This document shows positions 2,173 through 31,714 of a stretch of DNA of 64,000 nucleotides, piece by piece. The DNA is from Halalkaliarchaeum desulfuricum (GTDB taxonomy: Archaea; Halobacteriota; Halobacteria; Halobacteriales; Haloferacaceae), in assembly GCF_002952775.1 (NCBI RefSeq), contig NZ_CP025066.1, forward strand, positions 2,852,001-2,916,000, given 5' to 3'. Each line of letters begins with the position of its first letter. Position 1 is the first letter of the stretch. Under the pieces are notes generated by a model. That model did no database searches. It was not told the origin of the DNA and saw only the letters and a list, made by a program, of their open reading frames with translations. The position numbers and the translations under genes are program-made.

Positions 2173-3360
2173 ATGCGACAGAGTGATACTGGTGACGAAG
2201 CCGTTTACGGCGTTGAAACCAACGATTTCGTGGACGAGAGCCGATCGAGTCGATCACCGGGAATCTACCCACGGAGTGGGCGTCGCCAGTTCCTCGCGGC
2301 GGGCGCCACGGCGGTCGGAATCGGCCTGGCCGGTTGCCTCGGCGGGGATGGTGGAACGACGTACGAGCGCAACTACGACGGGCCGGGCGTCTCACCCGAA
2401 GGGACCGACTGGGAGGATCTGCCCGACCTCCACGGCGAACTCACTATTTATTCCGGCCGGCGGGAGGCACAGATTGGGCCCGTATTGACGGAAATCGAGT
2501 CCTACTACGATGACCTCACGGTCAACGTCCGGTACGAGGACAACGAAACCCATCTCCGCGCCATCGACGAGGAGGGGCAAAACAGTCCGGCGGACATCCT
2601 CTATACGCAGGATTCTGGAACGCTCGGTGCCCTGAAGGCGCTCGGTCGGACCGTCGATCTCACTGACGACGTGCTCGAGACGGTACCCGGTAGCTGGCGC
2701 GATCCGGAGGGAACCTGGACGGGCCTTTCGGGACGAACGCGGTGTATTGCGTACAACACGGACACCTGGGACGGTGACGATCTGCCGACGGATCTGTTTG
2801 CGTATCCCGAAGACGACCGGTTCCACGGCGAGATGGGCTGGCGAGTCGATTCGGGGTCGTTCCTCGGGTTCGTTCGGGCGATGATGGTCGCAAACGGCGC
2901 GGACCGAACCGAGCAGTTCCTCGAGGACATGCTCGCGGCCGACGTCAACAACTACGAGGGCGGTTCAACGACGCCGAACGCGCTCGCCGACGGCGAAGTG
3001 TCGATCGGGCTCGTAAACCACTACTACGTCGGACGACTGATCGCAGATCAGCCGGACGCGCCGGTTGCTATTACCTTCACCGAAGGGGACGTCGGATCGC
3101 TATTTAACGTCTCGGGGGCAGCCGTTCTCGATTCGAGTGACGAACGGGAGCTCGGACAGGACTTCATCAGGCATCTGCTTGGTCGTCAGGGACAGGAGTT
3201 CTTCGTGGACACGAACAAAGAGTACGCGGTGATCGAGGGTGTCGACTACGTCGGTGATCTTCCGACCCTCGAGGACCTCAACCCGCCGGAGTTCGACCTC
3301 AACGAGCTTGCAGACATCGAACCGGCCGTCGACCTGCTCCGGGAGGTCGGGATGCGGTGA
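2173..3360 (+). CDS. Iron(III) ABC transporter substrate-binding lipoprotein (FbpA/IdiA type)
   Basis: A 395-residue exported solute-binding protein of the Fe3+ family. A Tat signal with lipobox (RRQFLAAG...GLAGC; RR37-38, C55) means Tat export and lipid anchoring at C55. It is preceded by an unusually long 36-residue hydrophilic N-terminal extension. The start is kept because the ATG follows the operator/TATA by the distance typical of leaderless genes. The mature part begins the fold with ELTIYSGRREAQIGPVL and contains the ILYTQDSGTLGALKALG segment typical of FbpA-like proteins. It is followed by the permease at 3462. Three DtxR-like boxes around the pair support iron as substrate and repression when iron is plentiful. 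Confidence 0.88.
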   Translation: MRQSDTGDEAVYGVETNDFVDESRSSRSPGIYPRSGRRQFLAAGATAVGIGLAGCLGGDGGTTYERNYDGPGVSPEGTDWEDLPDLHGELTIYSGRREAQIGPVLTEIESYYDDLTVNVRYEDNETHLRAIDEEGQNSPADILYTQDSGTLGALKALGRTVDLTDDVLETVPGSWRDPEGTWTGLSGRTRCIAYNTDTWDGDDLPTDLFAYPEDDRFHGEMGWRVDSGSFLGFVRAMMVANGADRTEQFLEDMLAADVNNYEGGSTTPNALADGEVSIGLVNHYYVGRLIADQPDAPVAITFTEGDVGSLFNVSGAAVLDSSDERELGQDFIRHLLGRQGQEFFVDTNKEYAVIEGVDYVGDLPTLEDLNPPEFDLNELADIEPAVDLLREVGMR

Positions 3361-3416
3361 ATCCTCCCTCGCTGTCGACGACTCGCGTCCGTCCCCCGGC
3401 AGGGAACGCAGCCACG

Positions 3417-3432
3417 TTTAGGAACCCCTAAA
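3417..3432. promoter_or_regulatory. DtxR-like operator 3 before the permease gene
   Basis: TTTAGG-AACC-CCTAAA: six-base perfect arms, four-base spacer, the same half-sites as the two boxes upstream of the binding-protein gene. It sits 30 bases before the permease ATG, so the permease may have its own iron-controlled promoter. Confidence 0.6.
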
Positions 3433-3461
3433 AACGTCCGGGAGCAAGAAGAGGCAACCTC

Positions 3462-5081
3462 ATGGGTGTGACGGAGACGGAATCCGGGACGTCCGGAACC
3501 GCGGGCGGGGGCCCCGACGCCAGACAGGTGGGGCTCACGTTTCTCAGCGGCGCGATCGCCGCCGCGATGTTGCTCCCAGTCTCCTGGATCCTGCTGCGCG
3601 CGACCAGCGTGAACCTCGACCGTGCAATGGGGATCGTTTTTCGGGCCCGCACGCTGGAGATCGCTTTCAACAGCCTTCTCCTGATGGGTGTCGTGACCGG
3701 GTTGTCGGTTCTCATCGGGGTTCCGCTGGCGTATCTCACTGTCCGGACCGATCTCCCGTTTAGACGGTTCTGGACAATCGCCGTCGCGCTTCCGCTTGCG
3801 GTCCCCAGCTATCTGGGCGCGTTCGCGTTCATCGCCGTCTTTAGTCCCCGTGGACAGCTCCAGAGCCTACTCGAACCGTTGGGAGTTGAATCGCTCCCCT
3901 CGATCTACGGCCTCCACGGTGCGATCCTCATCATCACGCTGTACACGTATCCGTACGTGTATCTGACCACCAGAGCCGCGCTGAAGACGTTCGACACGTC
4001 GCTGGTCGACGCCGCACGGATGTTGAATCACGGCCGCTGGGAGACGTTCAAGCGGGTGACGTTCCCGCACGTCCGTCCGGCGGTCGTCGCCGGCGCGCTG
4101 CTTGTCGCCCTGTATGCCGTTTCCGACTTCGGGACGCCGGCGTTCCTGCAGGCTGAGGTGTTCACCCGGCAGATCTATCTGGAGCACCGATCGCTCGGCG
4201 GCGGCGATTACGCGGCGTTCCTCTCGTTGCAACTCGTGGTGTTGACGGTGTTCATTCTCGCACTCGAATCCCGGATCCGGGGCGACGAGACGATGCACGG
4301 CGACACCGCACGCGCCGGGACCCACCGGATCTCGCTGGGTCGATGGAAGTGGGTCGGCATGGCCGCCTGTGCCGCTATCGTCTTTTTCGCGATCGTTCTC
4401 CCGGTCGGCGTGTTCCTCCAGTGGCTCGCGACCTCGCAGGCGGACGTGCCCGCGAGCTTCCAGTTCCGGCTCGAGTACGTCGTAAACTCCGTTTCCGTGT
4501 CGCTTGCGGCGGCGGTCGTGGCGGGACTTGCGGCGCTACCGGTGGCGTATCTGGCGACACAGTACGACTCGTGGCTCGGTTTCCTCTTCGAACGGGCGAC
4601 CTACGTCGGCTACGCCGTGCCGGGCATCGTCATCGGGCTCGCGCTGGTGTTCTTCGGGGCGAACTACGGCGGGCTCTTGTATCAGTCGATCCCGATCCTC
4701 GTGTTCGCGTACGTCGTTCGGTTCATCCCCCAGTCCGTGGGTTCGACCCGGACGTCGATGCTACAGGTCGATCCGAAGTTGGTCGAGGCATCGCGGTCGC
4801 TGGGGCGGTCGTCGACGTCGACGTTCCGGGAGGTGACCCTGCCGCTCATCGCGCCGGGGGTCGTCGCCGGCGCAGCACTGGTGTTTCTCACCACAATGAA
4901 GGAGCTTCCGGCGACGCTTCTGTTGCGTCCGACCGGCTTCGAGACGCTGGTAACTCGCATCTGGGCGGCCGAGTCGGCCGGACTCCACGGCTACGCCGCG
5001 ATTCCGGCGCTGATCCTGGTCCTGGTGTCCGGGCTTTCGATGGTCGTCATACTGCGGCAGGAAGGCTACACCGAGGAGTGA
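3462..5081 (+). CDS. Iron ABC transporter permease (FbpB type, fused double domain)
   Basis: A 539-residue membrane protein with about 12 transmembrane segments and two BPD_transp_1 domains. Each half has the cytoplasmic EAA loop that docks the ATPase: DAARMLNHGRWETFKRVTFP near residues 184-203 and EASRSLG...FREVTLPLIAPG near 443-468. This is the single-chain layout of FbpB/SfuB-type Fe3+ permeases. It lies 101 bases after the binding-protein gene. No ATP-binding subunit follows: the next gene is convergent and unrelated, so the ATPase must be encoded elsewhere. Confidence 0.9.
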   Translation: MGVTETESGTSGTAGGGPDARQVGLTFLSGAIAAAMLLPVSWILLRATSVNLDRAMGIVFRARTLEIAFNSLLLMGVVTGLSVLIGVPLAYLTVRTDLPFRRFWTIAVALPLAVPSYLGAFAFIAVFSPRGQLQSLLEPLGVESLPSIYGLHGAILIITLYTYPYVYLTTRAALKTFDTSLVDAARMLNHGRWETFKRVTFPHVRPAVVAGALLVALYAVSDFGTPAFLQAEVFTRQIYLEHRSLGGGDYAAFLSLQLVVLTVFILALESRIRGDETMHGDTARAGTHRISLGRWKWVGMAACAAIVFFAIVLPVGVFLQWLATSQADVPASFQFRLEYVVNSVSVSLAAAVVAGLAALPVAYLATQYDSWLGFLFERATYVGYAVPGIVIGLALVFFGANYGGLLYQSIPILVFAYVVRFIPQSVGSTRTSMLQVDPKLVEASRSLGRSSTSTFREVTLPLIAPGVVAGAALVFLTTMKELPATLLLRPTGFETLVTRIWAAESAGLHGYAAIPALILVLVSGLSMVVILRQEGYTEE

Positions 5082-20341: not shown

Positions 20342-21513
20342 TTACCCCGGCTGTGAACTTGCGGGTTCGCTGATGCTGGGTTGGTCAACTGAACCCGACT
20401 GTTCCCCAACCTCGGCGGGTCTCCAGTCGTGTTCGTTCCACTGCCAGTACGCTCCTTCACACTCATAATGATTATTGTAGCGATTTACCGGTCGATCGGC
20501 CACCCGGTGGGCCGATCGTCCGGTTACGGCCGAGAATAATCATTATCAGGGGAGTTCTCGGATGCGTCCCTGTCGCGTCCAGCAGACAGGCCAGCAGGCC
20601 GAGCCATCGGCCCCACTTCAGACTGCAACAGGTTCCACGCGCCTGCCACGTCACTGTGTGCCTCCAGCGCACAGTCGTGACAGCGGAATGAATCGCCACG
20701 CCGCGTCACCGTCTCACTCCCGTACGACGGGCACTCGCTGCTCGAGTCGGCTTCGCTCACCGCCTCGATTGCGATCCCACCGTCACCGAACGTCACTCGA
20801 ATCCGGTCGAGCAGTTGGCGATGCGATCAGAACGCATGCGTCTTCTCGTTCACATCCGCCGGCCAGTGCGTCTCCAGTACATCAGTCAACTCGCCGACGT
20901 AGACGGTATCGACGTTGCGTGCAAGCAGCCACTCGGCGGCGTGTTTGATCGCCCCGTCCCGGCTGTGGTCCCGTGTGCGCGACCGCTGATCGTACAGGCG
21001 CTGGATCAACTGGCTCGTACACTGCTCGTCAGGGAGTGCTGACTGCAGTGTGGCAATTCGCTCGGTGTACTCCTGGAACCGTTCGAACTCGGGTCGGGCG
21101 TGGTAGACGGCCCTCTCACCCGTGTCGGTGACGATCGCGAGCGTGTTGTTCGTCCCGACGTCGATCGCGGCTGACTGCGTCGTGTTCTCTGAATCGAGTG
21201 TGCTCGTGGTCTCCTCCCAGTCGAAGCTGTACAGGTCGTTGCGGACGAGCCCGTGCAACTGGTAGCCGTCCTCCCGGGTGCCCCAGTATCCCGGTGGCGC
21301 TGGCTTTTCTGTGACTCTGGTGTCGGACGCGTCGTGGTAGGTCTCGAGCAACGAGAAGTGACTCCGCCAGGCCTCGCTGTTTTTGCGCGCGAGTTGCTGG
21401 CACGTCGCTTTCCCGAGGACCGGCGCGTACTCGTCGTAGAGGTCGGTGTATTCGGCATCCCACACGTCGCCGTTCTCAGCGAAGTACTGTTGCCGGCGTC
21501 GATAGGTAATCAC
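20342..21513 (-). pseudogene. tnpB: tnpB (IS1341/IS200-IS605 type) pseudogene 1
   Basis: An N-terminally truncated RuvC-type nuclease gene. Seen on the minus strand: RuvC-I motif AIDVGTNNTLAIV, an acidic motif in YVGELTDVL, the zinc finger starting CPSYGSE and ending CHDC, and RuvC-III AHSDVAGAWNLL. Three lesions: loss of the N-terminus at the IS6 junction (about 21511); an in-frame TGA at 20827-20829 where NEKTHxFW would be expected (Trp to stop); and an 80-bp palindromic element at 20466-20545. With the element and one TCA removed, the frame runs on through YWQWNEHDWRPAEVGEQ to the TAA at 20342. Not functional. Confidence 0.88.
20466..20545. mobile_element. 80-bp palindromic MITE-like element, copy 1
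   Basis: A near-palindrome: terminal arms TAATGATTATT / AATAATCATTA are perfect inverted repeats and inner arms CGATCGGCC / GGCCGATCG and ACCGG / CCGGT also pair. The whole unit can form one long interrupted hairpin. TCA flanks it on both sides (20463-20465 and 20546-20548), consistent with a 3-bp target duplication. It is inserted in the tnpB coding sequence; its excision together with one TCA restores the reading frame exactly. Confidence 0.85.
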
Positions 21514-22052
21514 GTTTCTGCGGTAGGTGGGTCGACGTGACTGAAACAGTTTGAAAACAAATGATTTCGTCGTTCTACTTCTCTAAATACATGTTCGACG
21601 GCGTTTCTGAAGCCGTGTTGTTCGACGCGATAGCTGTAGCCTTCACGGCGGAGCCCACCGATCAGATCGTCGGCGACATCGACGAGAAATACAGCATTTT
21701 CGATGTCGTGTTTCTCAGCTAATTCAGTAAGAAATTCTCGTGCGATCGAAATCGTATACGTCGGAAACAGCCCTGAGGGAAGGATCCTGTTCGTCTGTGG
21801 GTCGACAGCAGCGTACAGCCAGTACTGCTCGTCATTGAACCGGATCGCCTTTTGATCAACCGCAACGCGATCCGGATTATCACCGTCAGCTGGCTGTATA
21901 TCGGCTTTTTGGATTCTGTTGTAAACAGCGACACGACTCCAGTCCACACCCAAATAATCAAGAAGAATAACTGTATTCGAGAGTGATAGTCCACCAAGAT
22001 GGTGGCGAATACCCTTTTCAATGATCTTGCGGGGTGTCCGTTCTCGCTCCAC
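21510..22052 (-). pseudogene. IS6-family transposase remnant 1
   Basis: A 180-codon piece of a haloarchaeal IS6-type DDE transposase. Seen: VERERTPRKIIEKGIRHHLGGLSLSN, DRVAVDQKAIRFNDEQYWLYAAVD (first Asp), FLVDVADDL (second Asp) and FREVERRNHLFSNCFSHVD (Glu). It lacks about 20 residues at the N-terminus (the open frame begins at a GTG codon) and about 30-40 at the C-terminus, where it fuses to the tnpB pseudogene. The upstream side fuses to another tnpB fragment. All three catalytic residues are kept but the protein is truncated at both ends. Confidence 0.85.
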
Positions 22053-30645: not shown

Positions 30646-30852
30646 CTACCCCGCGGACAGACAGTGGAGGTGGATCTGTAGGTGGCGGTGTATCCTCCGT
30701 TCGGGGTGATCGACGTGATCCGCGATCATCCAGAGCCAGGCAGGCCCGAACTCCCGGAGCCCCTGGACGATCACGAAGTTCGTTTTCGTATTCCGAATGC
30801 TTTGTAACCCCCTCTTCCGTTCGGAGTTAACATCACCGTTCGTTCGGTTCAT
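30646..30852 (-). pseudogene. Degenerate IclR-type DNA-binding fragment
   Basis: A 68-codon frame from an ATG at 30852, at the very edge of palindromic element copy 2. Residues ~19-57 (RNTKTNFVIVQGLREFGPAW... IADHVDHPERRIHRHLQ) line up with the winged helix of the intact IclR protein at 25425 (TKTTFAIVKTLHEL... LAERV...AHSHLETL): the spacing is the same and about a third of positions match. The effector domain is absent. It is most likely a decayed regulator; a small functional DNA-binding protein cannot be excluded. Confidence 0.55.
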
Positions 30853-30930
30853 ATGATTATTGTAGCGATTTACCGGTCGGTCGGCCACCCGGCCCGCCGA
30901 TCGTCCGGTTACGGCCGAGAATAATCATTA
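30852..30930. mobile_element. 80-bp palindromic MITE-like element, copy 2
   Basis: It matches copy 1 (20466-20545) at nearly all positions and in the same orientation: TATGATTATTGTAGCG...AATAATCATTA, with changes only near the hairpin tip (GGTCGG for GATCGG and CCGGCCCG for CCGGTGGG) and one base missing at the left end. No clear target duplication is visible (TCA on the left, TGA on the right). It sits between the IclR fragment and the IS6 remnant. Confidence 0.85.
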
Positions 30931-31115: not shown

Positions 31116-31607
31116 TTAGTAGATATGTTCGACGCTGTTGTGATCTTCGTGGCGTTCGACGCGGAGATCAAGGCCGTGTCGAGTGCATGCGTCTTTCAGA
31201 GAAAGCGAGCCGTCGGTGAGAAAGACAGCGTCGTCAACGTCGTGTTTCTCGCGGTGTTGTGCGAGAAACTGTTGAACGAGAACGCTGTTTGTTGTCGGCT
31301 CAAGCTGTGTATAGAGCAATTTGTTTGTTTGAGGACCGACAGCGGCGTACAGCCAGCATTGCTCGTCGTTGAGTCCGATCACAGTCTCATCAACCGCAAC
31401 GTGATCCGGACTCAGTCCGTTCTCGTGCTGTAGATCTGCTTTGTGAACCCAATTATGGACCGTCGAACGAGCCCGTTTTATACCAAATATATCAAAAAGA
31501 GAAATAATATTCAAAAGAAATAATTCAGCAAGGTACAACTGAATACCGAGCTTCATCAGAAATCGCGGTGTCGCTTCGCGTTCATAAACGCAACCGTCCA
31601 TATGCAT
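31116..31607 (-). pseudogene. IS6-family transposase remnant 2
   Basis: An IS6-type transposase piece with recognisable YEREATPRFLMKLGIQLYLA, STVHNWVHKADLQ, DHVAVDETVIGLNDEQCWLYAAV (first Asp) and FLTDGSLSL (second Asp). The frame ends early at NSVEHIY, before the catalytic glutamate; remains of the C-terminus (SLFANFFRNAEA, near 31060-31095) lie downstream in another frame. The start of homology is near 31600 and about ten N-terminal residues are lost. It diverges from IS6 remnant 1 in sequence but lies in the same orientation, at the other end of the catabolic cluster. Confidence 0.82.
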
Positions 31608-31714
31608 GATTGCAACCTTCGACGCGTCAGCCCCCGACTGAGGCCCGCCAACCCCCTTTATGAAGCGATATATTGATCCACCGCTTTTAAGCAATCCCCA
31701 CCCGAATCAGTGGT

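Follow-up and report, generated by a model that had tools for sequence, protein, structure and literature searches.

An 80-bp palindrome that interrupts a decayed tnpB gene of Halalkaliarchaeum desulfuricum belongs to a family of haloarchaeal MITEs, here called F1, which is very probably moved in trans by a transposase of an IS630-family subgroup, the TNA group. The element lies in a 64,000-nucleotide stretch of the genome (the window). At the level of sequence, genome comparison documents F1 copies, their ends, target duplications, empty sites, and recent copies, along with full-length insertion sequences that carry the same end signature.

In the proposed mechanism, F1 would consist of two back-to-back transposon ends joined by a short stem and loop. 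Each end would bear a two-part signature, TAnnG... within positions 1-14 and TTTACCGG at positions 19-26, together with an asymmetric 5-nt spacer (end type TAnnG-NTTATTGTA). A transposase of the haloarchaeal IS630 group, mostly DD51-56E, would act on these ends in trans, presumably through the cut-and-paste chemistry of the IS630 family. Insertion would occur at C-TNA-G targets with duplication of 3 bp: TGA, TCA, or, rarely, TTA.

The element and its host gene

The features of the window are as follows.

20342..21513, minus strand: decayed tnpB with the F1 insertion near its 3' end (OrfB_IS605 and TNB domains)
20463..20465, no strand: left target duplication copy, TCA (TGA on the other strand), from the sequence
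20466..20545, plus strand: whole 80-bp palindromic element of family F1, from the sequence and family comparison
20466..20479, plus strand: left outer terminal inverted repeat, TAATGATTATTGTA, from the sequence
20480..20484, plus strand: left 5-nt spacer GCGAT, which does not pair with the right spacer and marks orientation
20485..20491, plus strand: left inner motif TTACCGG, element positions 20-26, at the same positions in TNA-group IS630 ends
20492..20519, plus strand: variable stem (positions 27-35 and 46-54) with 10-nt loop, from covarying pairs
20520..20526, minus strand: right inner motif CCGGTTA, one mismatch relative to the left motif
20527..20531, minus strand: right 5-nt spacer CGGCC
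20532..20545, minus strand: right outer terminal inverted repeat, GAGAATAATCATTA, 12/14 complementary to the left
20546..20548, no strand: right target duplication copy, TCA, from the sequence
30852..30930, plus strand: second, older F1 copy, 79 bp

The near-palindrome at 20466-20545, with TCA on both sides, reads just as the preliminary description had it. The F1 layout is as follows: a 14-nt outer end; 5 nt of non-complementary spacer; the 7-nt motif TTACCGG; 9 nt of variable stem; a 10-nt loop; and the mirror image, which together make 80 bp. As single-stranded DNA, the window element is predicted to fold with −24.1 kcal/mol, compared with −11.4 ± 2.4 for shuffled sequences (z −5.3).

Domain search identified an OrfB_IS605 domain and a Cas12f1-like TNB domain in the host gene. 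Deletion of the element plus one TCA rejoins the tnpB frame, as had been proposed, reading from ...ASENSPE directly into CEGAYWQWNEHDW.... The gene also contains an in-frame stop upstream of the insertion (AF*SHRQ), and so is a pseudogene; the insertion broke the 3' part of what is in any case a pseudogene. The second copy announced at 30852-30930 does exist, but its left end is one base short and its flanks, TCA and TGA, are now unequal. Two IS6-like transposase remnants, recognized by eye from translated open reading frames, lie at 21510-22052 and 31116-31694, one near each window copy of F1.

Copies and distribution

The preliminary description would have been overturned had there been only these two copies, or copies lacking defined ends and empty sites. 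The opposite was found throughout: the window genome (3.31 Mb, a single contig) contains 13 distinct F1 copies with fixed ends, and empty sites are described below. A congener contains at least 14 copies. BLAST searches of genomes G000 and G001 yielded 27 copies, 17 of them with matched TSA flanks and one with GAT. Among the flanks fetched, those of the two sets differ, and no insertion site is common to both genomes. One G001 copy (L049:1451-1562) is 100 bp long through an internal 20-bp stem duplication; its flanks are still TGA and TGA.

Within the taxonomic family, a covariance model built from 30 copies detected F1 in 40 of 170 genomes; a second model, built from 32 diverse copies, detected it in 184 of 392 haloarchaeal genomes representing 56 of the 96 genera of the order. 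A phylum-wide draw of 295 genomes contained F1 in 25, every one in this same order and none outside it. F1 also occurs on plasmids of Haloplanus, Natronomonas, and Halomicrobium, and on contigs of Halalkalirubrum salinum and archaeon SHRA6. Searches of viral contigs and phage records found no F1, and an Rfam search with F1 returned nothing relevant.

Pattern counts in two genomes gave 181 and 116 end matches, compared with 0-1 for the reversed pattern; these counts correspond to about 90 and 58 copies. Solo ends, as the trace of an autonomous copy, were considered and rejected: nearly all end matches examined in G112 and G108 are part of 77-81 bp elements.

The unique copies number 122. Of these, 112 measure exactly 80 bp, and identical flanks, TGA or TCA, enclose 102; the sample is biased toward both properties because the models include six flanking bases, the pattern needs TSA, and the script admits 77-82 bp. 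The target context is CTSAG or, in the TGA orientation, GNC-TGA-G. F1 thus is short, non-coding, and multi-copy, with defined inverted ends, as MITEs are.

Mobility and sister families

Five identical F1 copies at unrelated sites in genome G112 show, as judged from their sequences, that mobility has been recent. One of the G112 insertions is matched by an empty site in G024 (CCTT-TCA-[80]-TCA-GTC versus CCTTTCAGTC). A second G112 copy lies inside a tandem repeat of which another unit lacks F1, and so provides an intragenomic empty site. Both empty states contain a single TCA or TGA. The further marks of a MITE, target duplication (TGA or TCA in 102 of 122) and empty sites (in G024 and within G112), are present as well. 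The fixed-end copies, the matched TSA flanks, the empty sites, and the identical copies together support the original view that the element is MITE-like, is mobilized in trans, and duplicates 3 bp of its target.

A third G112 copy of F1 is inserted within another 80-bp palindrome, which defines family F2. F2 elements are exactly 80 bp and palindromic with TAGTAGCGATTGAA-type ends, and follow the F1 layout with the spacer ACTGT/TGACT in common. Dozens of copies occur in several genomes of genus g24; examples lie at L177 (about 3345-3511) and L179:6614-6693, and on L254, L246, and L263. An F2 empty site in G109, which has matching counterparts in G111 and G113, reveals a 2-bp TA duplication. F2 ends resemble those of TA-group, DD34E IS630 elements (TAGTA..., with TTGC at position 20). 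Genome G108 contains a 78-bp variant family with TAGGGGTTATCGTA ends and the spacer as in F1 and F2 (L132:2977-3054; L134:1960-2037; L135:2851-2928).

A candidate transposase

The preliminary description invoked some transposase in trans but named none; ends and duplication now match those of a divergent IS630-family group, located on L254-L287. Domain and family searches of these insertion sequences returned DDE_3, HTH_32/33, and IS630 family matches. In G111, the DDE_3 (IS630) elements are multi-copy, about 1.12-1.15 kb long, with ends TAGTG... or TACGG... and TTTACCGG at positions 19-26; TCA or TGA duplications flank 13 copies, and TTA one. Relatives with like ends and TNA duplications occur in many genera. 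Duplications of 30 TNA-group copies are TCA in 15, TGA in 13, and TTA in 2; since the scan demanded T-N-A, the outer T and A were given, and the independent result is the predominance of S between them. The ends coincide with boundaries seen by comparing insertion sequence copies, which is independent of that scan.

TAnnG and TTTACCGG occupy identical positions in F1 and TNA-group ends; positions 7-14 differ. On a profile of 36 unique insertion sequence ends that disregards the initial TA, 72% of 164 F1 ends scored above the 99.9th percentile of control 26-mers. Both F1 and its matching insertion sequences have a 3-bp TNA duplication, not the classical 2-bp TA duplication of IS630. The spacing from the second D to the E likewise distinguishes the TNA group (51-56 residues, with one of 42) from the TAGTA-ended TA group (34). 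A third IS630 group (L301, L305, L306, and L314) has TACTG-type ends and a DD34E triad; its boundaries are ambiguous and would allow either TGA or TA as the duplication.

A full-length transposon with exactly TAATGATTATT ends, which the preliminary description had proposed to look for, was not found; the match is instead to the two-part signature. No full transposon bearing TTATTGTA, the F1-specific stretch at positions 7-14, was present among the IS630 elements examined, nor did relatives at 38-42% identity have TTATTGTA ends. The window genome retains only a broken relic of a TNA-type insertion sequence (83% identity over 209 bp). Genome G112 carries five identical F1 copies but no DDE_3 match, which means that its transposase has been lost, lies on unassembled sequence, or escaped the search.

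The palindrome and gene ends

Of 30 pairs in the F1 palindrome, 20 are kept with changes on both sides. The covariation value is 0.39; shuffled sequences give 0.12, and slid controls no more than 0.12. Pairs at positions 27-35, outside the part shared with transposons, are among the most covarying. The palindrome at these positions, together with the fixed 80-bp length, is not explained by transposase recognition.

One tentative account, possible though short of probable, is that template-switch correction during replication keeps the palindrome, so that covariation would reflect mutation and not function. Quasi-palindrome correction is a known mutational process, and the inner stem, a part that transposons do not share, often shows double changes. 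However, the 5-nt spacer is non-complementary in all lineages even though it lies between the corrected arms. This account bears on the palindrome alone and does not conflict with IS630-mediated mobility.

F1 copies also favor gene ends. Of 99 copies read in the TGA orientation, 61% end a long reading frame, scored without a gene caller as the longest of three frames and open for at least 100 codons, with copies that are partly non-independent. Control sites in the same loci do so at 15% of CTGA and 20% of CTGAG sequences (Fisher p 6e-23 and 1e-12, respectively). Probably F1 is found mostly at TGA stops because the duplicated TGA restores the stop, leaving the protein intact. Full insertion sequence copies lie at such stops in 18% of cases. 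This figure favors survival of harmless insertions over targeting, with the proviso that insertion sequence copies may lie in gene-poor regions.

A bolder and rather doubtful suggestion is that the hairpin is itself part of the transposition machinery: an IS630-like transposase, shifted from TA to TNA targets, would act on a fold of fixed 80-bp geometry, and since the 3-bp duplication can supply a stop codon, gene ends would be targeted while the protein is spared. If true, this would be a gene-sparing strategy common to two MITE families across the haloarchaea.

The gene-end preference over control sites and the strong hairpin covariation might instead suggest a functional host element, for example a terminator or a 3'-end mRNA hairpin, selected at gene ends and only secondarily mobile. 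G-T mismatches, somewhat commoner than A-C (30 versus 14), point the same way, but their excess comes largely from one column. Moreover, identical recent copies occupy unrelated sites, including the interior of another mobile element and of tnpB, and the stop-codon bias requires no function, since survival of harmless insertions accounts for it. A host role therefore appears unlikely.

Other mobilizers

Mobilization by an IS5/PIF-Harbinger-like transposase (IS1031 type, with a TNA duplication) in place of IS630 is highly unlikely. The 3-bp TNA duplication in a palindromic CTNAG target does recall that group. However, among sixty DDE_Tnp_1 loci checked in ten genomes, with G112 and G108 among these, none combines TAnnG ends with TNA duplications; the ends read are of the GGCTCY, GAGGGTGTCATAG, or CATCCGTCTTTAG types, and the duplications are longer. 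The right ends and duplications were found in IS630 elements instead, so this reading is largely refuted. Other DDE_Tnp_1 transposases were ruled out along with the IS5 type by their wrong ends and duplication lengths.

Transposition by Y1 enzymes leaves no target duplication. A REP/REPIN-like palindrome moved as folded single-stranded DNA by a Y1 (RAYT) transposase would account for the small size, the perfect hairpin with covarying arms, the high copy number, the gene-end preference, and the want of an autonomous copy with identical ends, but can hardly apply to F1 and, as stated, is refuted by the duplications: 102 of 122 copies have a matched TGA or TCA, and the empty sites are clean. IS605-type elements, too, transpose without target duplication (PMC3119063).

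Relation to known elements

The F1 and insertion sequence set resembles the IS630-Tc1-mariner group and its MITEs in several respects: DDE_3 proteins with HTH and DDE in separate frames; ends beginning with TA; and small non-coding derivatives. The TNA group differs in its 3-bp TNA duplication (versus TA), its spacing of mostly 51-56 (versus 34), and its two-part end with TTTACCGG. For IS630-Tc1-mariner elements the TA duplication is the rule; TAA, TAAA, and TATA are described exceptions (PMC7386202, PMC8533490), and TNA is not among them.

The SMR-A and SMR-B repeats of Haloquadratum walsbyi are, like F1, non-coding and present in many copies, with inverted ends and lengths of 80-110 bp (HqIRS41 is 80 bp), and they too insert into IS605-type (tnpB) elements (PMC3119063). 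However, SMRs are defined as lacking target duplications and as having ends unrelated to any transposon, whereas F1 has both a duplication and transposon-related ends (PMC3119063). PATEs (palindrome-associated elements) likewise are palindromic, non-coding, and haloarchaeal but, unlike F1, are of IS605-type origin without inverted ends or target duplication (PMC3119063). From the SMRs HqIRS40/41/42/43/55, F1 is set apart at the level of their published description.

Tourist-like MITEs and PIF/Harbinger elements have a 3-bp TNA duplication within a palindromic CTNAG-like target. F1 is alike in duplication and target; the transposase superfamily differs, as F1 ends match the IS630 type. REP/REPIN sequences are short hairpins in many copies near gene ends, without target duplication; F1 shares their hairpin, copy number, and siting, but it alone has the duplication. 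Absence of a target duplication, which characterizes SMRs, PATEs, and REPINs alike, thus does not hold for F1.

F1 is classed as a MITE family tied to a variant IS630 group because TNA falls outside the described IS630 exceptions and SMRs lack duplications. No report of haloarchaeal IS630-derived MITEs or of IS630 TNA duplications was found in a literature search that left ISfinder and most subscription papers outside its scope. As far as the searched literature shows, F1 appears to be a new MITE family, and the haloarchaeal IS630 group with mostly DD51-56E and TNA duplications apparently is undescribed there.

Implications

Together, these results give a well-studied archaeal group a mobile element that spans the order and reaches dozens of copies per genome; from this group, the searched literature had offered only the Haloquadratum MITEs and "enigmatic" small mobile repeats. 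They also link haloarchaeal MITEs to a transposase class. Moreover, they indicate that the IS630/Tc1/mariner group has exchanged its TA duplication for TNA, along with a lengthened catalytic spacing. Two questions become testable: why the palindrome is exactly 80 bp; and whether stop codons are targets or safe harbors.
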